Origin: Symbiodinium sp. CCMP2592
Taxonomy: Eukaryota > Sar > Dinophyceae > Suessiales > Symbiodiniaceae
DNA length: 64,000 bases
Direction: 5' to 3'
NCBI GenBank assembly: GCA_905221615.1
Contig: CAJNDT010006135.1
Coordinates: 2,449,226-2,513,225 of the forward strand
Position numbers and translations under genes: made by a program. Below are positions 1 to 64,000 of this stretch, piece by piece. How positions within the stretch are numbered: the first letter of the stretch is position 1; every line of letters begins with the position of its first letter. The notes under the pieces were generated by a model. The model was not told where the DNA came from, did no database searches, and worked only from the letters and a program-made list of their open reading frames with translations.

Positions 1-1319
1 TTGCCGGACTTACCGGCTTTGCCCTTCTTGCCGGCGCCTTTCGAGCCTTTGTCTCCCTTCGCGTTCCAAGGAGGTCGTGTTTGAGATACATGAGGAGCCG
101 GGTTCAGTGGCAGGGTCGGTGATGGTGTCGGAGTAAAGAAAGTCGGCGTCGTAGGAGATGTCCATGCTTGTGTCGGGGTGGCTTGCCAAGAAGACATGGC
201 CTGTGTAGTCCACGTAGGTGTCGAAGGTTGCCATGAGCGCCATTGTGTGGTCGGATTGGACCAGGGTTGTCGATATCGCCGTCCTTGTCCTGGAGGTGAC
301 CACTTCTGCTGATATCCTTTTCCTTTCCCTTTCGGGGTTTGTTCGGCGCCTTTGCCGAATCGCTGCTTCTTCGACAGCGGTTGTTGTATAACGTCGTTGA
401 CTCTGGTGAGGTCGTTGATGAGGTCGTCGGTGATCGCTTGGAAGGTCTCGTTAGATCGCATGCGCATGGCGATGTCCCAAGAGAATTCTTCCCAAAGGCT
501 TTTCACGTTGTTAATGCGTTGTGAATGTTTGCGTACGAGACGAATGAACCAATCGACGTATTTGTTGACGACCGTCTCGGAGGCATACTTAATGAGGATC
601 CAGGCCCATCGGATTGCCTCAATCGCGTCTATAAGCATCCATTGTCCTCGCACATCCCACTCATCGTGTGACTTCTCGGTGATGTTATTGCGTTCGTCGA
701 GGACCAGTTTCTTCTCGTGCGTATCCTTCTTCCTGGCCGAGTTGATCGTGTCGAAGCTAGTCCAGATCCTTTGTGACACTATCTCGCCAAGTGCTGTGGC
801 GGTGTACATCTTCGATGTATGGTGCTCGTGATACATCCGAGCGAGTACTTTCTCCGCCCCGACTAGATTCTTCTCGGGGAACTGTCGTCGTTCGCCGTCC
901 ACGGTGATGCTATTGTAATCCTCGACCAGTTTGTTGTAGACACCCGTCGGGAGAGTCTTGGGGACGACGTCTTTGTCGGTGTGGGACGAAGTAGTAGTGG
1001 TCGGCAAGGTCGGGGAAGCTGAAGGTGTCGGAGTTGTTGTAGCAGCATGGTAAGCGAGTCGTGCAGACTGAGTGAGTACCATCCACTGGGCGGTGAGGGC
1101 GTCTTCGTCGGTGTCATCTCCGAGCTTGAACTCCACGCCCCCCGCCTTGGCGCCCGCCCTAAGCTTCGTGATCACATCTTTGATGCTCGCGTCATCCTTG
1201 AGGTACGTGCCGATGGTCGCATGAGACTTCAAGCCGAGTTTGGCCAAGTATCGGGCTACAACGTCTGTAGTCAGGTCGATGCCCGCTAAGTCGGCCGCGT
1301 CCTGAAGTGGATTGCTCAT
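1..1319 (-). CDS. Gag-like basic protein, C-terminus cut by the window edge
   Basis: An open frame runs from ATG at 1317-1319 to base 1 without a stop (about 439 codons seen). The N-terminus (MSNPLQDAADLAGI...) is a short, probably helical segment that loosely resembles the N-terminus of the recombinase next door; both could be SAM-like interaction domains, which is inference. The middle third is charged and Trp/Arg-rich, with helices around WEEFSWDIAMRMRSN. The last ~120 residues are low-complexity: GKGKGYQQKW, then Pro/Thr/Trp-rich repeats, then a Lys/Gly tail (KGSKGAGKKGKAGKSG). A helical core followed by a basic, disordered tail fits a nucleic-acid-binding Gag or capsid-type protein, but no zinc knuckle is visible in the part present. 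It lies 172 bases downstream of the recombinase stop, with one core hairpin in the gap. The function is not recognised with certainty. Confidence 0.6.
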   Translation of the reverse strand, partial: MSNPLQDAADLAGIDLTTDVVARYLAKLGLKSHATIGTYLKDDASIKDVITKLRAGAKAGGVEFKLGDDTDEDALTAQWMVLTQSARLAYHAATTTPTPSASPTLPTTTTSSHTDKDVVPKTLPTGVYNKLVEDYNSITVDGERRQFPEKNLVGAEKVLARMYHEHHTSKMYTATALGEIVSQRIWTSFDTINSARKKDTHEKKLVLDERNNITEKSHDEWDVRGQWMLIDAIEAIRWAWILIKYASETVVNKYVDWFIRLVRKHSQRINNVKSLWEEFSWDIAMRMRSNETFQAITDDLINDLTRVNDVIQQPLSKKQRFGKGAEQTPKGKGKGYQQKWSPPGQGRRYRQPWSNPTTQWRSWQPSTPTWTTQAMSSWQATPTQAWTSPTTPTFFTPTPSPTLPLNPAPHVSQTRPPWNAKGDKGSKGAGKKGKAGKSG

Positions 1320-1453
1320 GTTCGTCGAGAGATTTGGACTCGGGCAGAAATTGCTCTTATGAAAGGTCAGGCTGACGTGACATGTCTTCGGTGGCAACTC
1401 GAGGTGACATGAGGTCTGCATCGAGCTTTTTGCATTCGGATGATCGGGACGAA

Positions 1454-1489
1454 GCCGATGACACATCGCCGAGGCGGAAGTCAGTCGGC
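1454..1489 (-). repeat. Core hairpin 1 (conserved 17-nt loop, variable stem)
   Basis: The core ACATCGCCGAGGCGGAA (plus strand, 1463-1479) is flanked by GCCGATGAC on the left and GTCAGTCGGC on the right. These pair over nine positions with a one-base bulge. The hairpin begins three bases beyond the recombinase stop codon at 1492-1494. See the other five copies for the covarying stems. Confidence 0.75.
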
Positions 1490-1491
1490 CA

Positions 1492-3042
1492 TCAGTCCTC
1501 ATCCTCATCGGGCTGTGCGTCGGCGAAGGCTTGTGCCTCGCGTAATCTGAAACATCGTTTGCATTTCGGGCCTGATGGTTCGCGATACTCGCGGCGATGC
1601 GGTGCAAAGCCGTATGGCCATCCGCAAATTGTGTGCCAATGTGCGTTATCGCAGGATGATTCGGAGATTCCCGGCAAGTGCACAACCTTAGTTAAGGAGT
1701 TCACAACCCAGAATTTGGTACGGAGAGTCTCGAGGTATTGTGCGACCATCTCACGGACTTGTTCGGGCTTGTTCGGGGTCTCGGGCCTGTGGAACTCATC
1801 GCCTCGGTGCAAGGGGGACTCTTGCACATAAACTTTGATAGCATCACTGCCCCATCGACCTATCAGTTGAACGGTGTCCAGTGGGAAACCTCGTCGTGTG
1901 AGCATCTGAGAGCCAGATACTCGACAGACATGCTCGCAGAACCGATCGAGTAAGGCTCCGTTCGGTCCCATGCGAGTCATCGAGGTCCCAGTAGCAGAGA
2001 TCACAGAGCGAAAGATGTCGATGGTCTGATGATGATCAAGTGGTTGTCCGTCCGTGCCGGGAAAGAGGGGGCCGTCTCGAGAGCATCCTAGTGATTGTAG
2101 AAGGTCAAGATGTCGTTGTAGTGCGTGAAAGGGGCATAGTCGTGGAGAGGTCGAACAGCAGCATGGGTGTGATCTGGTCACGCACAAACCCACGATGTCC
2201 GTCTTCGTGCATGGTAGGGTGATGAACGCGGTGCGTCCGGCGTGTGTGATCTCCACCCACGCCTGGCCGAAAGTCACCGAAGCTGCCTCGATGCCTCGCA
2301 GTAGCCACCAGCAGCAGATGATGACCATGTCCACTCGATGTCGTAGTCGTCGTGCCCATGGATGAGGACCATCGAAGTCTTCGTCTGCGGGTCGTACTGG
2401 TAGTCGTGCAATGTCCTCGACGACGAAGGAGTCCTTGAGTTTAGCAGGTCCTCGTCCCCGTTCGACGGCCCTTTCGACTTGTTGCATCTTGAGGCAGACT
2501 TCGGGTGGCACCGAGGTACAAGTCTGTGCCACGTGCTCTTGTCGGGCTTGGCTGAAGATCTGCTTCGCGGACTTGTAACCTCCAGATCGCAAACTGGCAC
2601 CGATCGCGTCAACCAGTCGCACCGAGAGTGGCAACGGATCGAGATCCCACGCATCGGCGAGAGCAGTCCAAAGCTTCCACCTCGAATCTCGAGACTTCTG
2701 TGTCGTCATCGCGTAGGTATTGGTCTGGAGGTCCTCCAAGGAAGCTCTTCGTTGTTCTGGTTTGGCTGCTTCGAGTGCCCTGGCTAAGGAACCTCGGGAT
2801 GAAGGGTTACACCGAGGTAAATCTCGTCTCCGCACCGGCACGACTTCGCGTGGCATCGGTCTGCGATCGAGTGCCGACAGTAGTCTGTCTAGGTCAAGTC
2901 GGCTTGGGGCAATCTCCACGAGGACATTTTCGGATGTTCCTCGGAGTTTCTCGGGTGTATTGATCCCGCGTTTGGCCAACTCGGGTGCCAAAGCGGTCAA
3001 GTCGTGTGATCGCAGGAGCGCAAGCACATCTGCGAACGACAT
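1492..3042 (-). CDS. Tyrosine recombinase (phage-integrase fold, DIRS-like type), 516 aa
   Basis: ATG at 3040-3042, stop at 1492-1494. Residues ~1-60 form a helical domain (SFADVLALLRSHDL...). A central SAM-like core-binding segment contains SRWKLWTALADAW and SLRSGGYKSAKQIF. The catalytic half shows the expected order: Arg in WWLLRGIEAASV, Lys in ITLPCTKTD, the H-x-x-R box in CEHVCRVSGSQML, and the ending LIGRWGSDAIKVYV with the nucleophilic Tyr. Trp stands where many integrases have the second His; the GRW-x-S form is typical of DIRS/Ngaro-type eukaryotic recombinases. All catalytic residues are present, so the enzyme may be active in cutting and joining DNA for integration. Hairpins lie on both sides of the gene. 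A Crypton relationship is possible but less favoured because of the GRW motif. Confidence 0.85.
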   Translation of the reverse strand: MSFADVLALLRSHDLTALAPELAKRGINTPEKLRGTSENVLVEIAPSRLDLDRLLSALDRRPMPREVVPVRRRDLPRCNPSSRGSLARALEAAKPEQRRASLEDLQTNTYAMTTQKSRDSRWKLWTALADAWDLDPLPLSVRLVDAIGASLRSGGYKSAKQIFSQARQEHVAQTCTSVPPEVCLKMQQVERAVERGRGPAKLKDSFVVEDIARLPVRPADEDFDGPHPWARRLRHRVDMVIICCWWLLRGIEAASVTFGQAWVEITHAGRTAFITLPCTKTDIVGLCVTRSHPCCCSTSPRLCPFHALQRHLDLLQSLGCSRDGPLFPGTDGQPLDHHQTIDIFRSVISATGTSMTRMGPNGALLDRFCEHVCRVSGSQMLTRRGFPLDTVQLIGRWGSDAIKVYVQESPLHRGDEFHRPETPNKPEQVREMVAQYLETLRTKFWVVNSLTKVVHLPGISESSCDNAHWHTICGWPYGFAPHRREYREPSGPKCKRCFRLREAQAFADAQPDEDED

Positions 3043-3288
3043 GAGGTGGGGCTTCGGGCAAGGTTCGGGAACCGTGGGCTAAATCGCTGGTAGTTTCGGG
3101 CCACGGGATCCACAGAACTGTGGAAACTCTTAGACGTGAGGCGTAAGAGAGCAATAACAGGAAAGTCTTATTATGCAAGAGCTCGGCATTTGTTTTGTCA
3201 TCGATGTGCCAATCGAGAGTCCTCGAGCTTTGAGCTGGGGGATCGGGTTACAAGCTTCGAAATGTACAGAGCCGCGTCCCTTCCAGTA

Positions 3289-3314
3289 TCGCACGTCGCC
3301 GAGGCGGAAAGCGA
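3289..3314 (-). repeat. Core hairpin 2
   Basis: The core ACGTCGCCGAGGCGGAA (3293-3309) is flanked by TCGC (3289-3292) and GCGA (3311-3314), a 4-bp stem separated from the core by one extra A on the right. It has the weakest stem of the set. Confidence 0.6.
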
Positions 3315-3398
3315 AACCGAAGAGGACGGGTTGTCGAAGCGGCACCAGCGCGGTGCGATAAAGTCGGGTGAATAACCCGAGTCGACACTGTCGGGTAT

Positions 3399-3434
3399 CA
3401 GAACACTAACGTCGCCGAGGCGGAATAGTGTCTG
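3399..3434 (-). repeat. Core hairpin 3
   Basis: The core ACGTCGCCGAGGCGGAA (3409-3425) is flanked by CAGAACACTA and TAGTGTCTG. These pair over nine positions with a single bulged A; the six bases next to the core (ACACTA/TAGTGT) pair perfectly. It lies 26 bases downstream of the stop codon at 3460-3462. Confidence 0.75.
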
Positions 3435-3459
3435 TTTCCCGTGTGGGTCGATGTCGCGG

Positions 3460-5603
3460 CTACTGTGCCGCCTGTGCGTCTCGTCGACGGCCCTTGAGCA
3501 ACTCCAGGTGATCGGTGTCCACGTGGGTAAAGGACAAGTCGCCGACCATATATTGTCCCAGACGCAATCGTGTGTATGCGAGACTCATGAACCGGAGGAA
3601 GTCGTCCTGGGTCATGATGATGGTGTCGTCGGCGTCATAGTGGTATGTGGCGAATTGGTAGGTCGGGGGATCGGCGAGGGCCGAGTTGATGTCATAGGAC
3701 TCGAAGTGTGCCTTGGTGTTGAGGGTCTCGTCGAAGGGCTTGGCGGGATGCGAGGCAGTTGGCAGTAGATCCAGCCGATACTTCTTCGTTGTGGTCGAGT
3801 TGCGATTGGAGATCTCGAGGAGGTTGTGACTGGACCAGGTAACCGACTCGAAGTAAGGAGCTTCTGGTGCTTCATCTGCTCGTCGCGGAGGGCCCCCGCG
3901 AGTTTATCGCGGATATCGTCGTCTCCGAGGTCTCGTCGGATGCCGCTCATGATCTGTTTGAGCCGGCCAATCAAGGCGTCGTCGTCTTTGCGCTCCCACT
4001 CCATGAGATAGAGCATGTAGTCGCCGCCGTCGGAGGTGAGTCGTTGTCCAGTCGGGACTGGAACCGTGGCATCGACTTCGAGGGTGGTGCCGTCACCGTT
4101 GATGATCAGAGCCTTCTGGGCGGGCACAAAGGTCGGTGCATTCGTGGATGCCGCGTTGTTTCGAAGTGCCCAAGGTCTATACGCGGTCAAACATCGCGGG
4201 CAAGAGTACCGACCGTGTTGCGAGGAAATCGAGTAGTCCCACGAGATCTGTCGGAGCCAATGGTGATTGTGTATCACCGAGGTGCAATCCTTCGAGCGAC
4301 AGACGAAGTGTTGGTCGATGCTGTCGGAGACACGAAACAACCAATCGGTGAGTGGGGCCTCGGCGGTAACCATGTTCCAGAACTCATCGGCGTTCCAGTT
4401 CGGGTCGATGGATCGAGCGACGGTCGTGACCTCCCACTGGGCGAAGGCTTGGAACACTCGCTGCTTCTGGTCGGAGTCAAGCTTGGCGAGGTCCGCGACG
4501 AAAATGTCGGTGAGTCGTAGTATTCGACTTCGTACCTCGCGTCGAATGTTCGACTTGCTGTCGCCAGGCCTTTCGCGTTCGATGTCCTCGCACATTTGCT
4601 TCCACGAAGCGGCTCGCTTCCTCGAGGTCTCGAGGTTGATCTGCTTGCGCACGGAGTTGACCTTCTGGCAAATCGTGTACCAGTCGGGGATGCTGATCGT
4701 GTCGTAGCGGGTCGAGTTCTTGCGGACGAATGTCGGCTTCCGAACCCAACGACACTTCGCGGTATCCCAGTAGTTGTCGAAGAAGACCTTGCAGTAGAAT
4801 CCATGCGTTCGCTCGATCGCGATGTGCCACCCAGGCGGCTTGACTTCGTGGTTGTCGTCGCGATCGTAGAGCTGTCGACGGTCCTTGTGGTTATAGGGAA
4901 GGTCTCGAAGGTTGCCTCGTAGTCCTATCTTGGCCGGTGACAAGTCGGAGTTCTCGGCGTACCACACGAAGTCCTCGTTGGCCCCGGTTGCGCACTGGTA
5001 GCAACACCTGTAGTGGATGTTGCGCCAGTCGTCCTGGCCGTCGGGGTTAACCGAGAGGAGATAGTAAGGCGGAAACAGCAGACCACAAAAGGTGCAATCG
5101 ATGGATCCATCGTGGAGCTTGTCGTTGGCCGGAGTGCTGAAGTACTTGAGGTACATCTCGACTCGGTCGACATCGCGTTTGTGGTGATCTTCGATCGATG
5201 TCCCATCGCGACCAATGAGCTCGATGGGCATGCCGTTCTCGTCGACCTCCTCGCCGGTAAGTTGTCGGCGCCAAATCGCCGCCAGCTCGGAGTCTGTCGA
5301 GTTCGGGAACTGCTTTCGTAGTGATGACATCGCGAGCTGTTCGGAGGCTCGTCTGAAAGCGATGACCTCCAAGGCTCCCTGGGTGTGATGGTCATCGTAG
5401 AGCCTTCGTTGTAATTTCAGTGCTCGGCCCTCGTCGGTGTCCGGGTGGACTCCCTCGAGGTATCGAGCGGCCGGCAAAACTGCTCCGGAGCTGCTGCCGG
5501 GCATTTGGGAAAACTGCTCGATGGGATCGAGCTGAGTCGCCGATGTCTCGGGGAACTGTTCAATCGGATCCGACTCAATCGGGGACTGGCGAGAGTGTGC
5601 CAT
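3460..5603 (-). CDS. Cysteine-pair protein of unknown function, about 714 aa, one frame change near 3870
   Basis: The ATG at 5601-5603 is preferred over the upstream GTG at 5636. The N-terminus is Pro/Gln/Ser-rich (repeats of DPIEQF). Two cysteine clusters could each bind zinc: IDCTFCGLLF with a later YRCCYQCAT (C-x2-C...C-x2-C) in the first half, and CRSKDC...HNHHW...YSCPRC in the second. Long charged helices lie between them. The frame from 5603 loses protein-like character after about 3870, where it becomes a Pro/Ser/Thr run ending at 3612. The frame one base back stays open and protein-like from the same point (APYFESVTWSSHNLLEISNR, later YHYDADDTIIMTQDDFLRF) to a TAG at 3460-3462. I therefore place the true end at 3460, with a -1 shift around 3865-3880. 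That shift may be a mutation, a sequencing error or programmed. The family is not recognised. Confidence 0.6.
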
Positions 5604-5810
5604 CACTTCGGGTGGATCGGGAGGTTCGGGTAACACGAGTCGAGCTTGAGAGGTCGAAGTCTACGGAAGCCAAGCAATCTCCAAGGAGAGAGCAGGCCCC
5701 ACTACAACTAGTAGAGCCTGATGCAACCGAGTAACATGTCCTACAGGCAAGCACATTTGGTCTTGTCGTCGTATGTAACGAGTCATTCGGGGGGTTGAGA
5801 CCTACGGGTC

Positions 5811-5842
5811 AGGTGGACGCATCGCCGAGGCGGAAGTCCCCT
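5811..5842 (-). repeat. Core hairpin 4
   Basis: The core GCATCGCCGAGGCGGAA (5819-5835) is flanked by AGG-T-GGAC (5811-5818) and GTCCCCT (5836-5842), a 7-bp stem with one bulged T. Just to its left is a 4-bp stem with a tetraloop, GACC-TACG-GGTC. Confidence 0.7.
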
Positions 5843-5851
5843 TCTACCGAA

Positions 5852-5918
5852 ACGGTCACTGACCCGGAAACACCCGTACATCGCCGAGGCGGAAACGGGG
5901 CGACCGTGAGACCTAAAG
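5852..5918 (-). repeat. Core hairpin 5 with nested palindromes
   Basis: The core ACATCGCCGAGGCGGAA (5878-5894) is flanked by CCCGT (5873-5877) and ACGGG (5895-5899). A further outer pairing ACGGTC/GACCGT brackets it (about 5852-5857 with 5901-5906). GGTCACTGACC, a perfect 11-nt palindrome, lies to the left, and GACC-TAAA-GGTC to the right. It lies 44 bases downstream of the stop at 5943. The gap 5604-5942 contains this hairpin, hairpin 4 and otherwise no gene that I can see. Confidence 0.75.
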
Positions 5919-5942
5919 GTCGGGTAGGCCTCGTGTAAAGGC

Positions 5943-8045
5943 TCACGCATTCTCGCGGAATCGCAGGATGAAAGCCGGCGGCTCCGCGGCGATCATCGAT
6001 CGCATTCGCTCGTGTTGGGCGAAGGCACTTCGCATCGCCGGTGAGAGCATATTCGAAGTGCATGAAAGGATCGCCGAGGCCTGCTCCCGAAAGAAGGTCT
6101 GCATGGGCTCGAAGTATGGCATCTGCGCCGCGAAGGTGTTGAGATTCCTCGCCGTGTGGCACCAAATTCGGAGTCGGTTCATCCGATCTTCCACCGAAGT
6201 ATGGTTCAGGTCGGAGAGAGAGGCGGTGATGCTGTGCCACACCATCGAGTAGATCAAGGTAGTCCGGGGTTCCACGAAGTTATTCGGGACACCCAGGAGC
6301 AACACCCGTTCCTGCAGTACGTCGTCTTGCGGGGTGTGGATCGGGAGGTCGATGTAAAGGCCGTATTGGGTGAGGTAGCTCCCGAAAGTAGGGCATCGGA
6401 GTACCTGTTCGATGTAGATGATGCCATCGTATGTGATCTCCCATGGAGTGTCGAAGGCGAAGGAGGAGTAGGGGTGATTGCCAGGTGGCAACATCGCGAC
6501 ATTGTGGCCACCCACCGGCGTCATCGCTTGCAAATTCGCCGACATCATCGGGAAGTTGTCGAAGTGGCGCAGTGTTTGAAAGCCAAACACTGGCTCGTGT
6601 GATGACGGTGCATTGGATCGGACATCGTCGATCGAAGTGCGCCCCTTCTCCACCACCTGCGAGTCGCGCCACTGCACTCGGAATCTCTCGAGGCATGACT
6701 GTCGTGGTGGTTGTGGCTGAACCGCGACCGGTACACTCGTGTAAGGATTCCCCAAGGAGGTCGTGATAGTCGAGGAAGAGGCCGCCCCCGACTCGTTGGT
6801 ATCTGGCCGTAAGACTTGCCTCGGGTCATTTCGTGTCAAGTCCACAGCAGGGTGGACGGAGAATCTCGGAGGCACGACCTTTCCAAACCCCGCGGAGCTG
6901 TCGGCGTCGGGGTGTGGTCGTTTGGGCATGGCCTTGGTCTTAGTGCTCACGAGAGTCGTAGTAGCGGCAGCCCCAAAGGATGGGTTGATCCACTCGGATT
7001 CACTCGCGGAATTGGCCACCGGCCCAGAGCTCCTTGGGTTCATCGATGTCGCAGGGTTGGCTGTAGTAACCACGGTCGGAGGAGTCGGTGGTGGTGTCGC
7101 GGAATCATCGTCCTCGTGCCAAGGATCTGGCGACCTCGGCCTCGTCTGCGGTGTCGTGGTAGTCGGTGGGGCCGCCGGAGTCGTGGCTGGTGTCGAAGCG
7201 GCGATCTCATCCGGGATTTCGACGATCACCGGGGTCTTAGAGTCGAGCCATCTCTTCGCCGGTGACGGGGATCTCTTCGGGAATCTCGCCGGAGAAAGCG
7301 GTCGTTGTGATCCCCTGGCTGCTCCATCGCCGTGGCGGAAAGCAGTTCGGGGTTCACGGCCGAAGCTGGGTGCATCGGAGTCCGTATCCGTGCTGACCTG
7401 GAAGAAAGTTCTCCTTGGTGTCGGCGGAGTCGGCGTAGTCGAAGGTGCCGCCGATGGGAACGCTGCCGGAGGTGCTGTCGATGGGGCTGCTGTAGAAGGG
7501 GCTGACGAGGGAGCCGCTGAAGGGGGCCATCGGGGTCTCGAAGTCGGGAAAATCGCTCCCCGTGTCGGAGTGGGGTGTTGTCCCCAGGTCGCCGGAGGTC
7601 TCGATTCCTCGCGAACTCTACGGGGAGAGCGTCCTCGACGATGCAGGCCATCCGCGATTTCTTGTCGTAGTTGTTGGGCAACATCAGATTTATCCCACGA
7701 TTCGTAGTCGTAGTACCGAAGGAAGTTTGTGCCAAAGTTGAACTTGCGCATCTCGGCGGAACGGAAAGTGGTCATCGAGTCCATGATCCACTCACGAGCC
7801 TGTGCTCGGTTGACCTGCTCGATGATTCCGTTCTTCGACGAGTAATGGTAAGGTGGTTCACCTCGACGATTCTGTCGCTGTACTACGAAAGCCTGTCGCA
7901 TAGCTTCGTCGAACGTGTGGCCATGTTGATTCCAGCACGTATTGTGGTACTCGCAGCATCCCTGGAACCATTTGTGGCATATGAGGTTGGGCACTACCCA
8001 CTGTTTGTTGAGGAAATCGGGGTGAAGAAAACCACAATTGGCCAT
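5943..8045 (-). CDS. CCCH zinc-finger protein of unknown role, 700 aa
   Basis: ATG at 8043-8045, stop at 5943. Residues ~23-41 (CHKWFQGCCEYHNTCWNQH) fit a C-x7-C-x5-C-x3-H finger, a single-stranded nucleic-acid-binding fold. Residues ~45-140 are mixed helical. From ~150 to ~450 the protein is low-complexity (Pro, Ala, Ser, Thr runs) and probably disordered. The last ~230 residues are compact and rich in aromatic residues (FDTPWEITYDGIIYIEQVLR, IWCHTARNLNTFAAQ, ILSCTSNML), suggesting a folded C-terminal domain. One core hairpin (7312-7352) lies inside the disordered stretch. The next frame upstream ends 39 bases before this ATG. A nucleic-acid-binding structural protein of the mobile unit is plausible but is inference. 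Confidence 0.65.
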   Translation of the reverse strand: MANCGFLHPDFLNKQWVVPNLICHKWFQGCCEYHNTCWNQHGHTFDEAMRQAFVVQRQNRRGEPPYHYSSKNGIIEQVNRAQAREWIMDSMTTFRSAEMRKFNFGTNFLRYYDYESWDKSDVAQQLRQEIADGLHRRGRSPRRVREESRPPATWGQHPTPTRGAIFPTSRPRWPPSAAPSSAPSTAAPSTAPPAAFPSAAPSTTPTPPTPRRTFFQVSTDTDSDAPSFGREPRTAFRHGDGAARGSQRPLSPARFPKRSPSPAKRWLDSKTPVIVEIPDEIAASTPATTPAAPPTTTTPQTRPRSPDPWHEDDDSATPPPTPPTVVTTANPATSMNPRSSGPVANSASESEWINPSFGAAATTTLVSTKTKAMPKRPHPDADSSAGFGKVVPPRFSVHPAVDLTRNDPRQVLRPDTNESGAASSSTITTSLGNPYTSVPVAVQPQPPRQSCLERFRVQWRDSQVVEKGRTSIDDVRSNAPSSHEPVFGFQTLRHFDNFPMMSANLQAMTPVGGHNVAMLPPGNHPYSSFAFDTPWEITYDGIIYIEQVLRCPTFGSYLTQYGLYIDLPIHTPQDDVLQERVLLLGVPNNFVEPRTTLIYSMVWHSITASLSDLNHTSVEDRMNRLRIWCHTARNLNTFAAQMPYFEPMQTFFREQASAILSCTSNMLSPAMRSAFAQHERMRSMIAAEPPAFILRFRENA
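7312..7352 (-). repeat. Core hairpin 6, inside the CCCH-protein gene
   Basis: The core CCATCGCCGTGGCGGAA (7324-7340, two changes from consensus) is flanked by CTGCT and AGCAG (5 bp). Beyond a 3x3 internal loop, CCCC (7312-7315) pairs with GGGG (7349-7352). It is the only copy inside a coding frame. Confidence 0.6.
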
Positions 8046-8084: not shown

Positions 8085-8840
8085 TCATCGTATCTCGGAG
8101 ATGGGGACTTGGGCCGTGTCGCTGACTACTTCGGGGTACTCGTTAAGCATCGACTCTGGAACAGGGGCCGTCATCTTCACCAACGTGCCCTCGCAGAGAA
8201 AATCGAACCATGAGTCGGCTCGGGTACGTGCCATGGCTACGAATTGGCTAGTCCAAATCGATGGTAATCGAAGTAGTGGGCTTGAGATGCCCTTCGAAGT
8301 TCCGCTTTCGAGCTTTAGAGGCAGCGGGTTCGAGAGTATGTAATTCCATGCCGAAATCATCACGAAAAATGTCTGCCAAATGCTGATTATGCAGATCGGT
8401 CTCATGCACAAGAAGAGCAGCGTCGGTGTCAGTAGGGGTGCATGATCGGAGTCGGGGTGTAGGGAAGCCTCGACGATCTCGAACGGCACCGTCAGCGGCT
8501 CCGCGGACTCGTCGCGGTTGGTGATGTGCAGGTACAGGAAGGCCTCGAGGTTGGGCGGTTTCAACAAAGTCGCCGCAAGATTGACAATGTCGTTCGCCGT
8601 CTGACACTGGGCGATATGATCGAGTGCCTTTCGTATCTGTCGGGATTGTCGCTTGTTCCAAGCTCCCCACGTCACATCCTCGGGTTTCTCGACTTGAAAA
8701 TCTTCGAGAACTTGCTCGCGGCTGAATTCCTCGAGCGATTCCTTCAGACTGTCAACAACTGACAGAGAAGCCGTAGTGCTCGAGGTACTGGCCGCCAGCA
8801 GCGGTCGTAGTAGTGCTCGGGGTACTGGCCGCCCGGGCGG
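8085..8840 (-). pseudogene. First frame of the recombinase unit, apparently frame-damaged
   Basis: The frame is open from the TAG at 8841-8843 down to a stop at 8085 (252 codons) but has no early ATG; the protein-like part begins near 8780 (VDSLKESLEEFSREQVLEDF). Between about 8430 and 8250 this frame becomes hydrophobic and unlike its surroundings. The neighbouring frame there reads smoothly (HETDLHNQHLADIFRDDFG...) and ends exactly where the first frame becomes protein-like again (QFVAMARTRADSWFDF...PEVVSDTAQVPISEIR). This is best explained by two compensating frame changes, so the gene is broken or mis-sequenced. The upstream part carries two copies of a 24-base unit (GTAGTGCTCGRGGTACTGGC, at about 8776 and 8811). 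The function is not recognised. Confidence 0.4.
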
Positions 8841-8882
8841 CTATGACCGAGGAGTGATCCGAGGGGACTGAAACAAAATTTC

Positions 8883-8905
8883 GCTCAAGCTGTAACAGCT
8901 TGAGC
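8883..8905. repeat. Perfect 11-bp inverted repeat abutting the spliced-leader relic
   Basis: GCTCAAGCTGT (8883-8893) and ACAGCTTGAGC (8895-8905) are exact inverted copies around a single A. The right arm is the 3' end of the spliced-leader relic. The left arm continues into AAATTTC, which resembles the leader's CATTTTG, so two leader-like ends face each other. Confidence 0.8.
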
Positions 8906-8920
8906 CAAAATGGCCACGGA
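8899..8920 (-). other. Dinoflagellate spliced-leader relic
   Basis: Read on the minus strand, this 22-base stretch matches the dinoflagellate spliced leader (beginning CCGTAGCC and ending TTTTGGCTCAAG) at 21 of 22 positions; the single change is GTAG to GTGG. Genomic copies of the leader in front of genes are known in dinoflagellates and are taken as signs that trans-spliced mRNA was reverse-transcribed and reinserted. It lies 56 bases upstream of the open frame of the recombinase unit and in the same orientation. Confidence 0.85.
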
Positions 8921-9005
8921 GTATACAATCATTCGACATGAATCGGTGAGTCAATCCCCTGACCGATTCGGTGTTTAAGTGAGATATGAAGTTGTCACTT
9001 CGCAC

Positions 9006-9260
9006 AAACAAGTGTGTGCTACACATAAATAAACATACATATATATATATAAACATACATATATATATCTATATATATATATAGACAATAAAAACCCACA
9101 CACACACACACAGCAATATCCGTATACCCATATAGCCTTTCACACTCCAGACCTTAAGTTTCAGTAGCAGGGCTATGTACAAACATACATATACATACTC
9201 ATGTACTTATACATATGCATATACATACACGTACATGCATAAGCACATGTACAGGCGACA
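9006..9260. repeat. AT and CA microsatellites
   Basis: Interleaved runs of (AT)n, (CATA)n and (CA)n with no coding potential. The right edge overlaps the low-complexity 3' end of the gene model that follows. Confidence 0.8.
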
Positions 9261-51380: not shown

Positions 51381-51400
51381 CCTTCGTGTGCCCTGTTGCC

Positions 51401-54400
51401 ATGGACACTCTTGCTTCTAGAAGGAGAAAGTCGAGCTCTGTGCCTCCTGGTGGGCTTAGTGGCGGTGCTACGGCAGCTGACACACCTGTCCCACTTGAAT
51501 CAGGAGATGAGCTTGAGCCTTCGTACGAGGACCAAGATGCAGCGGGAGCAGCCAACAGTCAGACTGGGATTGATGGTGAGGCCCCAGCCTCTTCGAAGCC
51601 TCTACCAAATCCTTTTTGGTCTGAAAAGGCTACAGCAGAATTTCAGTTGAACCAGTCCCGACCGCGCGACTTACCTAGCACTACTGAGAGAGATGATGAT
51701 GTGGACGTGCATCCACCGTATGACTTCTCTGAGCCAGCCATGGCATCTTCTGGGCAAAATGCTGGGAAACTTGATGATAGAAGTGAGTCAAGACTCTTGC
51801 ACCGGGGTCTCGGAGCGAGCTCTCCGGGATCCAGTGGCAAGGCGTCGATCCTGGAGCGTGGTGAGACGACTACGAAAGTGGAAGTCAGGAGCTATGCCCT
51901 TCAGGTGACGGAATCCCCGACGGGACCAACACAGCCGGACCATCAAGGAGCTCAGTACTTCATGATTGGTTCGGATGGGGGTGACACTCCGTTTCGCGAG
52001 CAGGAGTCTACAAAGGTTAGGAGTTTGGATGGGGAGATGTTCTCGCAAAGAGCTTCTACTGCAGGCAGAGCTTCTGACGTCAGGGACCCTAGCCAGGCTA
52101 CCGTTGCAGCGCTCCTGCAACGGGTCAAGGACCTTGAAGATGCGCTAGTGGCGGAAAGAAACTCAGGAGCTTCGGTGTCAATGAAGTCCGCTGCTGGTCA
52201 GAATACGGGAACCTCAGTGTCGATGAAGTCGGCGGTAGGTGGTGCTGGTAGAGCTGTAGGAGTAGATGCTGAAAATGTGGATGGAAACCCGTCCGTTGTA
52301 CAGACAAGTTTCTGCGATCCCCCAGGGTTAACAAGTGTGAGTAATGAACACAATGATAATAGTGTGGGTGGTCTTGGAAAATGGGTGTATGTTGATGGTG
52401 GTTACCGGCAGCTTGCCCTCAATGCACAGGGAGTTTGGACTTTACTTCCTAGCGTGCTAAATCAACCACCTCCTCCTCCTGTTCAGCCCCAAGCACCTCA
52501 ATCTTCGGCAAGTCTCCCAGGGCCTTCCTGGATTCGGGGGCCAGCGCTTCCTGTTGAAGGGCACGGTTGGACTTGCCCCGCACAGCAGCTTCACCAAGTG
52601 CAGCAGAGTGTGCCGGAGCCGGTACAAGGAGGATCAGGCTTCTTTACGCCGCCGCAGATTCCTGAAGACCTTAGTGGGTTGCCTAAGGGTTTAGTTGAGT
52701 TTGTAGGCTTAGGTGGCCCTCCGCAGTACCGACCAGCTTCGATGTCACATCATGTTGAGCAAGCGGCTCCAGCAATGCAATGCACTCAGGGTTATAGTGG
52801 GTTAGTTGGTCCTCCACTCCACCACGTAGCTCCGATCCCTACGCCCCATCCTGTTGAGCAGTCGTTTCCAGGAATGCAATGCACTCAGGGTTTTGGCATT
52901 GGTTCGGGTGGTTCATTTCTGCCCCAGGTACCTTCGATGCCTTATCCGCAGTATCCTGTTGAGCAGTCGGTTCCAGGATTGTATAGCACTCAGGGCTATG
53001 ATAGGGATTCGAATTATCTGGTGTCACATCAGACAGCCTTCCCGCGTCATCATGATGAGCAGTCGGTTGTGCCTAATACCTCCTCAAGCCCGGTACCACC
53101 CCCGCCTCCTAGTGGTTTAGGACCTGACTTTGGGGTGAGACAAGAGATAGGGTTTAGGGTAGATCGCACGCCAGGTGGTACTCCGGTGCCTCCGTTGCCT
53201 CCACCTTTAACCCCAACTCCAACGTCTGAAATCCGCCGTCAGGAGCTTCGGTACTCGCCTCAATGGCAGCGCTGGCATGATCTTCCACAGCTCTCGGAGC
53301 TGAGAACTGATGAGGCACCGATTGCAGTGGGCGATTGGATAACATTAGTGGGTCCTATAGTTGGGGACATTAGTACTGGAGCGGGTCTTTGGTGGGTCAA
53401 GGTTAAGGATAGGGCTGAAGCTTTCTATGCACAGTGGCTTAATGCTACCCCGCTACACCGAGCACAAATTGAAGTAACCTTAGGATCTGAGCTTTCCCAG
53501 CCGCAGTATGCCCGGCTTGAGCAACGAGTAACATCGATGCTGTTGGCCTCGCTTCCACAGAACTTGAGACAGGACATCCTAGCTTCTAGGGTTCTCAATT
53601 CGGTGAATGTTTTGTATAGGGTGATGGTTGCAGGGCAGCCAGGAGGAACTGCTGAGCGCGCGACACTGTTGAACTTCTTGACTCAGCCAGGGACTGCACA
53701 GAACCCGGCGGAAGCATTGGAGAAATTGAGGAAGTACTCAAGATGGAGATCGCGTGCGGAGCAGCTCAAGGTTTCCCTCCCCGATCCTTCACTCCTGCTC
53801 AGGGCTGTTGAGAGCATCGTGTCTGGAATCGTGAGTTCGAGCACTTATAGGGAGTTGGCTTTCAGGCTTAGTGTGCTGAAGCTTGAGCTCTCTTTAGATC
53901 ACGTGCCAACACATGAGAAGGTTGAAAAGTTCAGGAGGCAGGTTCATGCCGAGATGGAGCTGCTCGCGGTGAGCGCTCAGGCGCTCTCTCAGGAAGAGAA
54001 GAGACAGCGGGTAAGGAGAGCCAAGGCCACTGAGGAGGAAGGAAAGGAGGAGAAGCCAGAACACAGGAAAGGAAAGGGCGCGAACAATACAGGAGGCAAG
54101 GATGCAGGTAAAGGTAAAGGACTTAAAGGCAAGCCTTCTGATGCCCAGCCTGAAAGCAATCGCCGAGTCTGTCAGTTTTGGGGTTCCGCAAAGGGGTGTA
54201 ACGCCGGACGGTCATGCCAATACAATCACGATCTTAGTGTTGTTGAGGATGGTAGTGGTAGGTGCTTTGAGTGTTCATCCACTGAGCACTGGAGGAATGC
54301 GTGCCCAGTGCTAGGGAGAGGCCCACCCACTGCCGCTGGCAGCGCTGACCATAAGGCGGGTGTAGAGGCCTCAGCTAAGGCTGAACCTAAGCGGGGTCCC

Positions 54401-57400
54401 CGGAAGAGAGTTCGCAAGGTTGGTGGAGTTGAGGTTCCTGAGGGTTCGGAAGCTCAGGCCTCGCAGTCTGAGGGCGCACCAGCTGCAGCGACAGGGCCCT
54501 CAAATGATTTGGTGAAGGAAGCCATTGATGCCATTAAGTCTTTGAGGATATCCAAGCTGTGTGCTGTTAAAGCCGAAGAATCTAGAGACGCCGTTTTGGG
54601 TTTGTTGGACGGTGGTGCCACAACCTCACTTCGACAAGCCATTAGTCTGCAAGAATGGGAAGCTGCCGCCCCAGTGGTAGTGCATTTAGCTTCAGGGGAA
54701 ACAAACAATCTTCGGATCGCCAGCACAGGCGTCCTGCTAGCAGAGCCAGCGTCGTTGAGTCAGCAGAAAGCTGCTCCGATTGTTGCTTTACATCAGCTTG
54801 TGAGCCTAGGGTATCAGGTTCGTTGGACCTCAGGAGGCTTTGTGTTGCGAGATCCAGAAGGCTCTAAGGTGCCAGTTGTTCTGGTGGCAGGTTGCCCGGA
54901 GGTTTCGTCAAAGCTTGCCTTGGATATGATATCTAAGATAGAAAAGCTGAGTGGGGTCGCTGTGAAGGCTTATGCGTGTAATGGGCACCTTAGCCAAGAC
55001 GTACCCCTCACAAGTCTAGCCACGGCGCTGTTGGCAGGAAAGGGCCCGCATCCCGATCGTTGGACGTGGCTCACCGAACTAGTGGGTCTTCAAAGTAGCT
55101 CTCTTCTTTCGCAGGTGCTCGATGAGCCGAGGATGGAAGCCGTTGGCATACAGCCACGTTTCAACCGTCGCACTCGCCGCACCTTAAGCCAGTGTGAAGG
55201 GATAGCTGTTGTGATTGGAGATCCTAAAGCCTACGTAGGAACCGTGCCTTCAAAATGGGGAACGATCCGCCTAGATCACAGGGAGGTGAGGGATGAAGGA
55301 ATTCACGCATTCCTGTTTGAGCTTGCGCGGATAGGCCTTATCAGGCAAGTGGTGTGCACTGATCTTCCAAGTCTTTTTCCCGCTATGTGTAACGGTTGCC
55401 AATCGCCTGAAGCCAACGCGGCTAAGGATGCACTGGTACTGCTTAGAATCCTGCATTTGTGTGGTCAAGCCGATTGTGGCCGAAAGGCTGCGGGTTTTAC
55501 AATCCCACCGTTGTTCCTGTGCGAAAGTGACAACGATCCGCAGGTCGGGGCTTTGGTCAGATCATCACCGTGGCATAGTGTTAGTCATGGCTTGGTTAAG
55601 TCACTGATGTTCCACCAGCAGCAATGCCGGGAGTATGATGGAGTAGGACGGGCGGTATGCCTGAAAGTGGCTAAGCTTGCGAAAAACCGTGAGAAAACAT
55701 CCACCCCAAAAGGGAAGATTGATGCATCCTTTGAGCGTCACGTCGCCAACGGCCACTTGCCATTCCGACGAGATTGCGCCACCTGCTTGAGAGGTAGATT
55801 GAAGTCTAGACCTCACCGTAGGATTAAGGTTCCTGACTCTTTTGTGTTAGGCTGTGATCTCTCCGGTCCGTATGCTAATGGCAATCATGAAAGGCTTAAG
55901 AAGGTTAGATACTGCTTGCATGCAGTGCTTACCGTTCCGGTGTTGGCAACAGACATCCTCAAGCAGGAATATGATTACGAGCCGTCGGACCCGGGTGAGG
56001 GGGAAAAGCATGATGCCTCTACTTTGCAGGTTGAGCCCTTCGGAGAGGATGATGCTGAGTTGAGCGTTAGTGTGATGAAGCCTTCGCCCCCAAATGTGCA
56101 TGAGGTCCCGGGTGCTTGGGAGTTTCCTGAAGAGGGTTTCGTCGAAGATGAGCCTCCTAAAGGGGCTGGTGATGGCGACGCCATGACAGGTGATGAAGGT
56201 GGTGATGGCGATGATGGTGTGACAACCGGTGAAGTTCCTTTGAAGGAGGTGCATATGCATGAGGTGCCTTACTTAGTCATGCTGCCAGATAAAAAGGCCA
56301 AGACCGTCACCAATGCCTTGAAAGAAGTTCTAGCGGACATCGCTTATTGGGGGCTCCCGGTACGCAGAGTCCATACTGACAAAGGAGCAGAGTTCACGAA
56401 TGCACAGTTTCGCCAGCTCCTAGCGGATCATCAGGTTCGTCGTACAACAACGGTTGGCTCGGACTTTAAGGCTAATGGGCGCACTGAAGCCCACATAGGG
56501 CGTGTCAAGGGGCTCACTCGCGCATTGCTTGCGGCGGCGTCTGCTGATGATGCGGATTGGGCTTTTGCTATGCGGCACGCTGTCTTCAGTATGAGGTCGC
56601 AGGTCTTTACAGTCTTGGGTTTTCCCCAGCGCGAACCGATTCCGTTCTACACCAAGGTTTGGGTAAGAAAGAAGGAATGGACTTTGCACTTGTGGGCGCC
56701 AAAGTGTATAGAGGCCCGCGTTATGGCTCCCTCTGAGTCCGCTCCAGGTGGTTACGTAGTGCGCCTTCAACCGAGCCACCCTTCCGATCTTTGGGATGGT
56801 CTCCAGGGTTACTTTGAAACCACGGCGTTGATTCAAGGGGTAAGGGCTCAGGAACCTGTCTTTGAGGCATCCGGTGAGGTTTCGGTGATCCCACCTAGCG
56901 AGGTGCGCAAAGGGGTGCCGGTGACTGAGGAATCAAGGAAGACTCCCGCCTCTTCTGGGCCGCCTGGTCCATCGTCTCGTTTGCGTCGTAAAACTCCTGA
57001 CCCCTTGTGCATTGACCTCCCGCACGCTGTGCGAGCCCTTGCTGATTCTCTCGAGGCTCTCTCTGAGGACTTGTTGCGTCGGGGATTGTATGATAATGCA
57101 TCGTGGTCTCAGGTGCTGCGCCTCTTGCCCCATAAGTCAATCCGCAGGGGTTTTATGTCAGCCCTGGGGCCTGGGACTCAGTATCGTAGCTTTGGGATGT
57201 TCACGCACGGGGGAGTGCTTGGTGTGACGACGGCTAGTCGTCAGCTTCCGCACACGCAAAGGTACCTTTTGGCAGTGCTACAGCACTATCACCCTCAGGC
57301 TACATTCACTTCTTTTGTAGCGTCGGTGAATTGCAGCGCCCCCATCCACCGTGACTACTTCAATGCTCCGGATAGCTTGAACTATGTTGTTGGCGGAGCC

Positions 57401-63596: not shown

Positions 63597-64000
63597 GGAG
63601 AGAAGCTGAAGTTTCGGGTGGGTATTAAGAGGGTTTAGGGTTTGCAGTTTGGGGTTCCGCGTTTAGGGTTTAGGGCTTAGGGTTTAGAGCTTAGGGTTTA
63701 GACCTTCAGGTTTAGGGTTCGGGGTTTTGGGTTTAGGTTTTAGAGTTTAGGGTTTAGGATTTAGGGTTCGTGTGGCTTTGAGCAGGAGGTTAAGCTAGGA
63801 GCTTGAGGATGTGTTGCGTTCTCAAACAGACTCTCAAAGAAGTGCGCGCGGTTGGGCCCTGTAGTACTTGACAATATCCGGCAGCATCCGGTAAATGTAC
63901 CACAGGCAAAAACATGGCTCAGCGTACCAATGAAATGTACATACATATGCAGCCCTCAACAGGCTCTATACGAACCTGCGAATATGCAACCTTTACTAAT

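Follow-up and report, generated by a model that had tools for sequence, protein, structure and literature searches.

The analysed window is a stretch of 64,000 nucleotides of Symbiodinium sp. CCMP2592 DNA, located in a 1.1-Gb assembly that its protein relatives identify as a dinoflagellate's, and it carries the following genes, hairpins and repeat:

3 to 1319, minus strand: gene0, an open reading frame that leads into Pol; its position is the only ground for calling it gag-like.
1454 to 1489, minus strand: hairpin h1 (core 1464-1479), between the recombinase and gene0.
1492 to 3042, minus strand: tyrosine recombinase (P0001), with conserved recombinase residues in alignment.
3289 to 3314, minus strand: hairpin h2 (core 3294-3309), between gene2 and the recombinase.
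3403 to 3431, minus strand: hairpin h3 (core 3410-3425), between gene2 and the recombinase.
3460 to 5636, minus strand: gene2, an unknown protein with paired cysteines.
5815 to 5839, minus strand: hairpin h4 (core 5820-5835), between gene3 and gene2.
5873 to 5899, minus strand: hairpin h5 (core 5879-5894), between gene3 and gene2.
5943 to 8045, minus strand: gene3, with two CCCH-like cysteine/histidine patterns near the N-terminus and a proline-rich middle.
7319 to 7345, minus strand: hairpin h6 (core 7325-7340), within the frame of gene3 and translated there as F-R-H-G-D.
8869 to 9024, minus strand: terminal repeat A of the DIRS element; an internal copy lies 12.7 kb leftward and shares 98.7% identity with it.

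The cluster that holds the hairpins belongs to a DIRS-type retrotransposon 13.06 kb long and accounts for about two thirds of it; this host element is of the SymbioDIRS-Dnmt3 kind. An earlier, sequence-only reading had spoken of a recombinase gene cluster; the recombinase is borne out, and the cluster itself is this retrotransposon. Its repeats are ordered A-coding-B-A-B, with A of 156 bp at 98.7% identity and B of 178 bp at 99.4%. The DNMT domain of Pol matched PF00145 above the cut-off (E=5.5e-9) and, when compared with solved structures, gave 29 matches, all to DNMT3 proteins (best E=5e-6). The Pol translation also shows by eye a YVDD motif and RNase H-like residues, candidates for a reverse transcriptase and an RNase H; Pfam gave no match for either. 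Symbiodinium DIRS reverse transcriptases align poorly with Pfam seeds according to the relevant part of PMC5890265.

A separate tyrosine recombinase reading frame is present, as in SymbioDIRS-Dnmt3, and since the cluster is a DIRS retrotransposon, this recombinase is the element's own integration enzyme. Residues K280, H371, R374, W397 and Y405 are nearly invariant among 22 aligned sequences and the first arginine is found in most, with a PF00589 match below the family cut-off (E=0.005). The element is present in many genome copies: 83 recombinase places were scored, the best of 658 candidates, and the frame is stop-free in most of them. Used to look for more distant families in the genome, the queries P0010 (best identity 49%) and P0019 (40%) recovered nearly the same genome places as P0001, the places scored being the best 83 of 571 and the best 81 of 600 candidates, respectively. 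Relatives of P0001 were found neither in phage or plasmid records nor, by peptide-pattern search, in viral contigs. In a Symbiodinium microadriaticum relative (P0048), gene0 is joined to recombinase sequence and to a DNA methylase domain; the predicted structure of gene0 had no related fold listed, gave no function and excludes nothing. The gene2 reading frame shifts near 3870 in the window copy. Zinc-finger matches for gene3 were sub-threshold (Pfam zf-CCCH at E=0.033 in the relative P0030, tristetraprolin at E=0.18), and its predicted structure (pLDDT 35) was worthless for assigning a function.

The core CRTCGCCGWGGCGGAA has six exact matches in the window, all on the plus strand, at 1464, 3294, 3410, 5820, 5879 and 7325, as the sequence-only reading had held, and only two further matches with up to three mismatches were found in the 64 kb, both with three. 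Each of the six cores is closed by a different but complementary stem. At a fixed offset (one unpaired nucleotide on the left, none on the right), five copies form 4, 6, 4, 5 and 5 Watson-Crick pairs, while the copy at 3294 reaches 4 once a further unpaired base is allowed on the right; four pairs at the fixed offset are reached by 0.5% of window places. The claim that the flanks differ and yet pair was thus upheld, with 6/6 stems versus a comparable stem at 4/238 control loci among the matches listed in bacterial genomes and IMG/VR virus contigs, these loci having been chosen for holding this core or a form of it in which two bases are left free, one match per locus. The long stem described at 1464 does have complementary arms; it contains a bulged base, and GCCGATGAC/GTCAGTCGGC is not one continuous helix.

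A seventh hairpin, h7, with a changed core and an A-U in place of G-C as its inner stem pair, lies in Pol, 4.4 kb beyond h1 and outside the window, and all seven share one orientation in the element. Confinement to the recombinase cluster, as first proposed, holds inside the window and fails beyond it, given h7 and the recurrence of the set in other genome copies. A generalised hairpin scan gave one weak match in the rest of the window, at 63964 in simple repeats; it placed no hairpin between gene0 and Pol, and none of the seven in the terminal repeats. A covariance model search of the window recovered only the six hairpins from which the model was built, which match by construction, with the next best hit at E=2.5. 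A chance repeat was ruled out by the mismatch scan, the stem nulls, the control loci and this search.

Pairing was next assessed over 27 distinct hairpins from the seven positions, an alignment hand-chosen from 56 distinct 40-mers, with classes assigned by flank similarity, which overlooked three h4 copies, those of highest divergence (L273, L274, L287), and with two distinct h4 sequences added by hand; pair counts were taken on the plus (antisense) strand of the window. Cells were paired in 90.1% of cases versus 69.3% in shuffles, and the covariation score was 0.523 versus 0.146 when shuffled (0/500 reaching the observed value) and at most 0.186 when slid. Two of the five measures did not clearly exceed shuffles, namely pairs changed on both sides (6 versus 5.2; 150/500) and further pair types (17 versus 15.8; 179/500). 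The inner pair is GC in 23 hairpins, AU in 3 and other in 1, and the covariation lies mostly between the seven positions, with little within any one of them. A double-stranded DNA binding site, or repeats arisen by chance without folding, would account for the core alone, a near-invariant 16-nt word; such a reading is hardly credible against stems that are variable yet complementary at all seven positions and a score far above both the shuffled and the slid controls.

The hairpins are also retained among copies of the element. Genome-wide, 752 core matches with at most one mismatch were counted, and the scatter unrelated to this cluster that would have spoken against a selected structure was not seen: 94 of the 100 exact matches listed belong to same-strand groups within 7 kb; longer sequence was taken for 18 groups, and all of these are copies of this element. 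These 18 copies, selected for holding the core, contain 103 of the 108 expected h1-h6 hairpins, the absences being h6 in L272, h1 in L278 (at the contig start), h1 and h6 in L283 and h3 in L287, with weak or shifted proximal stems at h4 in L274, h5 in L283 and both h1 and h4 in L286. In six further copies selected by recombinase and not by hairpin, h1 was present in all, and h7 was present at 8/8 places fetched. Among the six ungrouped exact cores of the 100 listed, five have a stem (h6 in L239, h4 in L240, L309, h1 in L311 and h6 in L312) and only L310 does not. L239, an internally deleted copy, has lost neither h6 nor the outer end of repeat B.

In copies diverged by about 20%, the core is 94-97% identical and the stem flanks 72-86%, compared to 54-62% for the rest of the intergenic sequence and 73% for a gene3 segment (seven copies, six for gene3, in mostly intergenic segments). 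The core is thereby among the best kept noncoding junction sequence, second to one block near gene2, and together with the covariation score this agrees with the original proposal that a conserved loop with compensating stems marks a selected structure. An element of 66-73% identity retains h4 and also h5, whose stem has changed. Three gene3 relatives retain F/S-R-Q-G-D at the h6 site, where a 5-bp stem is encodable in 3/3 if G-U is allowed and in 1/3 with Watson-Crick pairs only, the corresponding nulls in the linker being 6.5% and 2.8%.

The position of the hairpins relative to the genes bears on what they might do. In the sense direction, the distance from stop codon to core is 12 nt for the recombinase (h1 junction), 34 and 150 nt for gene2 (from the frame reaching the gene2 end) and 48 and 107 nt for gene3, while the sixth core lies within the gene3 frame and not after a stop codon. 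Five hairpins downstream of gene ends had been described correctly, with distances here of 12-150 nt. Intercistronic signals at gene junctions on a long transcript, for 3' end formation, spliced-leader addition or re-initiation, would suit these five of seven, which occupy three junctions of the window. A spliced leader is added to dinoflagellate mRNAs, and terminal repeat A contains a spliced-leader-like 21-mer at 8899-8919. Such signals are nevertheless rather unlikely, as a cut at h6 or h7, which lie within the frames of gene3 and Pol, would destroy the message, the three gene3 relatives retain the h6 peptide motif, and the gene0-Pol junction is without a hairpin in the scan. The pure RNA processing or termination hairpins once suggested likewise fare poorly with two of seven inside open reading frames, and programmed frameshifting, cut sites and termination were set aside by the hairpin positions.

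Each hairpin has an outer stem whose sequence is free and a core that is nearly fixed and contains a short inner stem. Read as sense RNA (window minus strand), this core is predicted to form an asymmetric internal loop, with UUC opposite AYG plus one base, below a 3-bp upper helix capped by a C-N-C-G tetraloop. Of 65 distinct hairpins, 64 have CNCG as their sense loop (CUCG, CACG or CCCG) and one has CAUG; judged by its letters, the loop fits the YNMG tetraloop class, with the sense strand the presumed functional one. The YNMG consensus is discussed for enterovirus oriL, with CUCG, CACG and CCCG among the loops named, in the pertinent section of PMC5633025.

Other features lean to the opposite strand. 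On the antisense strand, the invariant T-G pair that closes the inner stem is a standard one, and on the sense strand it becomes an A-C mismatch; mean folding energy with RNA parameters favours antisense in 5/7 hairpin classes, h2 and h7 excepted. Departures from the majority pair, over nine pairs per hairpin, comprise 5 G-U on sense only, 0 on antisense only, 5 Watson-Crick and 9 other. This wobble-pair count was not taken as proof of strand, because the bulge of h1 accounts for one of the five sense-only departures, because an antisense-type G-U is itself in the majority at one h6 pair, at one h2 pair and at the invariant T-G pair, and because in L240 the inner stem of h5 has a G-U of antisense type. 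Folding of whole junctions was below shuffles on both strands for gene2-recombinase (z -2.2 to -3.9) and on the sense strand for the core part of gene3-gene2 (z -2.0), and weak or absent at the other junctions.

Sites in folded single-stranded cDNA, recognised by the tyrosine recombinase or serving circle formation, would be in keeping with the enzyme that the element encodes, with the cDNA that DIRS elements make before insertion (PMC5890265, in the part on DIRS) and with the better folding of antisense, the would-be first cDNA strand. We consider them improbable: the seven copies are dispersed internally, none in the terminal repeats, and integration junctions lie elsewhere; the RNA tetraloop rule is obeyed on the sense strand only; and the only deletion junction examined, that of L239, is in gene3 outside the core. 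Nor does the company of a recombinase turn the hairpins into recombination sites, as had been suggested, for that enzyme serves the element's own integration.

Our favoured reading, held tentatively and with a little less than even confidence, is that the hairpins act in cis, as structures in the RNA of a SymbioDIRS-Dnmt3-like element, and are read by a protein for RNA assembly. They are taken as repeated binding sites rather than sites of cutting or termination because two of the seven (h6 in gene3, h7 in Pol) lie inside reading frames. The sense RNA would be the working strand, and one RNA-binding protein may recognise the fixed tip, the stem serving only as a handle. The likeliest reader would be encoded by the element, either the CCCH-like protein of gene3 or the gag-like one of gene0. 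The seven copies, spaced along the RNA, could act together, on the model of the dispersed packaging signals of some RNA viruses, in collecting the element RNA and assembling it into a reverse-transcription particle. Five of the copies lie within 150 nt after stop codons, as a processing role predicts likewise. It is possible, though doubtful, that a single element-encoded RNA-binding protein reads a seven-copy tetraloop hairpin code and that deleted copies with even one hairpin, such as L239, are still carried along.

Many fixed-tip sites on one RNA would suit any sequence-specific RNA-binding protein, including a host RNA-binding or RNA-decay protein that controls the element or its translation. 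This appears quite improbable, as a silencing site should vanish in diverging copies, and the core is instead among their best kept noncoding junction sequence.

To our knowledge, RNA choice and packaging by tyrosine-recombinase retrotransposons have been little studied. A short, near-invariant, repeated hairpin offers a handle, as a single synthetic RNA would serve for binding tests with every element protein, the number of hairpins in deleted copies could test cis-acting function from genomics alone, and the covariance model could find relatives in other dinoflagellates. The suggestion that no named RNA family has this core agrees with Rfam 15, which gave no match in the window at the gathering score and, with E values up to 1 admitted, none at 1300-7500, the stretch that holds h1 to h6. 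In the searched literature, in which few subscription journals were covered, the letters of the 14-nt core were absent on both strands and in DNA and RNA spelling; searches there on DIRS elements with hairpins or RNA structure, and on retrotransposon packaging stem-loops with a conserved loop, likewise found nothing.

Among known systems, the attC sites of integrons resemble the present set in being hairpins near a tyrosine recombinase gene. In attC, sequence is conserved in the arms, as inverted core sites, and the tip is variable. Here, the tip is conserved and the stem variable at all seven positions, and the copies are not cassette borders; the likeness that had been suggested is therefore weak, and an attC recombination site was rejected. 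The element itself is like SymbioDIRS-Dnmt3, as the relevant parts of PMC5890265 describe it, in its tyrosine recombinase frame, its Pol frame with a DNMT3-like domain and a putative reverse transcriptase motif, its A-coding-B-A-B repeats and its many copies in a dinoflagellate genome, and differs in its hairpins and the extra frames gene2 and gene3; the word hairpin is absent from the main text of that paper. In the tetraloop class of the tip, known as a protein target, the hairpins resemble domain d of enterovirus oriL, a YNMG hairpin bound by protein 3C/3CD (PMC5633025, in its treatment of this domain). That domain is a single structure in a 5' replication element, whereas seven free hairpins occur here, which have an upper helix of 3 bp and an internal loop of a different kind. 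Enterovirus-E carries dispersed RNA packaging signals on its single-stranded genome (PMC7793301, in the portion on these signals); unlike those, the present hairpins belong to a retrotransposon, have a core nearly invariant over 16 nt and are known from sequence alone. Several stem-loops with one loop motif are found along the element RNA and conserved among relatives, and in this they are like the enterovirus-E signals, where several sites with a common recognition motif are spread over one RNA.

Six exact copies of the core CRTCGCCGWGGCGGAA lie in the window (h1-h6, at 1464, 3294, 3410, 5820, 5879 and 7325), and any other match there has at least three mismatches. The stems closing these cores are different in each copy and complementary in each, at a nearly constant offset, bearing out the claim of the sequence-only reading that conserved cores carry varying but paired stems. 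A covariance model built from the six copies, as proposed in that reading, returned those six alone from the window (next match E=2.5). A stem of this kind was present at 4 of 238 loci with a chance core among the matches listed from bacterial genomes and virus contigs. The adjoining genes of the SymbioDIRS-Dnmt3-like retrotransposon run along the minus strand, and in the sense orientation the hairpin RNA is therefore the reverse complement, TTCCGCCWCGGCGAYG; in this direction, the order is gene3, h5 and h4, gene2, h3 and h2, the tyrosine recombinase, h1 and gene0, with h6 located within gene3.

A generalised scan of the element, with unpaired core positions fixed (one miss tolerated) and pairing demanded in an inner as well as an outer stem, identified exactly seven places in a single orientation, and none in each of 20 base shuffles. 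The seventh, h7, is found at -2912 (coordinates below 1 run leftward from the window's first base and equal the position in the fetched stretch L269 minus 10000), reads CGTCACCGTGGTGGAA and has an inner A-U pair in place of G-C. It lies within Pol at residue 964 and was found at all eight fetched places in other copies. The proposed confinement of the hairpins to the recombinase cluster thus applies to the six window cores but not to this changed copy beyond the window. The h6 and h7 cores are translated in the same frame, giving F-R-H-G-D in gene3 and F-H-H-G-D in Pol, and at the protein level three gene3 relatives from other records carry F/S-R-Q-G-D at the h6 core site. A 5-bp stem is encodable in all three relatives with G-U pairs and in one with Watson-Crick pairs only (null 6.5% and 2.8%, respectively), which lends modest support to binding sites over cut sites, as these proteins are mutually related and were judged from protein rather than DNA.

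Across 18 copies in the same genome, 103 of the 108 expected h1-h6 hairpins were found, a proportion biased upward because the copies were selected for holding the core; as a control for this selection, h1 was present in six of six copies selected by recombinase instead. Aligned parts were 97-99.9% identical to the window in 11 of the 18 copies and 78-81% identical in seven. For four segments compared in these seven divergent copies (six for gene3), the first three being mostly intergenic with short coding ends, identity was 95, 95, 97 and 94% in the core, 85, 86, 72 and 82% in the stem flanks and 54, 57, 62 and 73% in the remaining sequence. The rearranged and more distant copy L240 (66-73%) kept h4 and h5, the latter with a different stem. 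Searches of the organism's own genome, covering 1.098 Gb in 5383 contigs, gave 752 core matches with at most one mismatch versus 301 for the reversed pattern. Rather than being scattered genome-wide apart from the cluster, 94 of the 100 exact matches among those listed were in same-strand groups, and five of the six ungrouped ones have a stem. A separate 70-bp noncoding block immediately upstream of gene2 (5651-5720) differed by only 0-3 mismatches in each of the 18 copies fetched, even in the seven that are ~20% diverged overall, and is conserved better than the hairpins; its sense strand can form a 12-pair hairpin, folding no better than shuffles (z -0.8).

Pairing was evaluated on the window plus strand for 27 distinct hairpins from all seven positions, using shuffle counts that are not probabilities and are inflated by related copies. 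Paired cells amounted to 90.1% versus 69.3% shuffled, and the covariation score was 0.523, whereas shuffles gave 0.146 and sliding by 1-3 columns gave no more than 0.186. Both partners change in every one of the five outer pairs and in a single inner pair of the four. Two counts stayed close to the shuffled level among these 27 hairpins, that of pairs altered on either side together (6 versus 5.2 shuffled) and that of further pair types (17 versus 15.8). Covariation is largely among the element's seven positions, the proximal stem being mostly constant within one position; changes that keep or restore pairing within a position were found in the outer portion of h1 (L286, L299) and also in h4 (L283, L313), h5 (L240) and h7 (L293).

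On the antisense strand the loop is CGNG, for which we know of no stable loop class. On the sense strand, 65 distinct hairpins have the loops CTCG (41), CACG (14), CCCG (9) and CATG (1), the first three conforming to YNMG, a consensus for stable tetraloops treated in PMC5633025. Over the nine pairs counted, wobble changes numbered five on the sense strand versus none on the antisense, with L240 a contrary case. The inner stem's invariant T-G is a standard pair in the antisense reading but not in the sense one. By mean folding energy, h1, h3, h4, h5 and h6 do better as antisense, h2 and h7 as sense. Sense RNA is the likely, though not proven, functional form, antisense cDNA being a possible alternative.

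Seven hairpins on one RNA, in coding and noncoding parts, each with a fixed tip borne by a stem of free sequence, would suit a putative sequence-specific RNA-binding protein, for which the hairpins are probably sites. Because two CCCH-like patterns can be read in gene3, whose Pfam and structure matches are sub-threshold, the element may encode its own reader, with gene3 as the candidate. A processing role stays the main rival because five hairpins closely follow stop codons, but h6 and h7 are inside reading frames, which argues against cutting. An internally deleted copy, L239 (C12:85912-88927; junction at 2226), has 2.2 kb from the element's 5' part fused directly to repeat B at its outer end, and retains h6 together with that end, the copy's other end being beyond the fetched stretch; this single case fits a cis-acting site.

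The element is completed by DNA to the left of the window, in the arrangement A-coding-B-A-B spanning 13,056 bp.

Repeats of the element
8869-9024, again at -3786 to -3631: repeat A, 156 bp, 98.7% identity
-3635 to -3458, again at -4031 to -3854: repeat B, 178 bp, 99.4% identity

A 21-mer in repeat A (8899-8919, minus strand) is one mismatch from the dinoflagellate spliced leader, as it is in L272, L278 and L285. Three mismatches to this leader are seen in L271, L281, L282 and the internal A copy (L269, near 6244), and four in L274 and L283. Its presence in repeat A suggests past capture of a trans-spliced transcript there.

The window's tyrosine recombinase retains the recombinase residues in alignment, and the protein collection holds 23 relatives, one labelled Symbiodinium natans, several clusters representing dozens of members. 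Together with the spliced-leader-like 21-mer, these relatives point to Symbiodiniaceae or a nearby dinoflagellate as the source. In the Pol frame (1132 residues), a YVDD motif can be read and PF00145 (DNA methylase) is matched at E=5.5e-9; among solved structures, this methylase domain is closest to DNMT3B and DNMT3A (best E=5e-6). A relative from Symbiodinium microadriaticum (P0048) fuses recombinase sequence, gene0 and DNA methylase. We call gene0 gag-like purely from its location ahead of Pol; a fold search with the structure predicted for it (mean pLDDT 69) returned nothing similar. The copy in the window is not intact between 3460 and 8830, as gene2 shifts frame near 3870, an in-frame stop is found at 8085-8087 ahead of gene3 and the short ORF before gene3 apparently changes frame too; open frames are retained for Pol, gene0 and the recombinase. 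Elsewhere in the window are a minus-strand ORF at 18547-20979 that matches RVT_2, the reverse transcriptase domain of Copia type (E=8.8e-9), and one open frame of 3314 codons at 51386-61330 (plus strand). The order of the repeats matches the A-coding-B-A-B order described for SymbioDIRS-Dnmt3 in PMC5890265.
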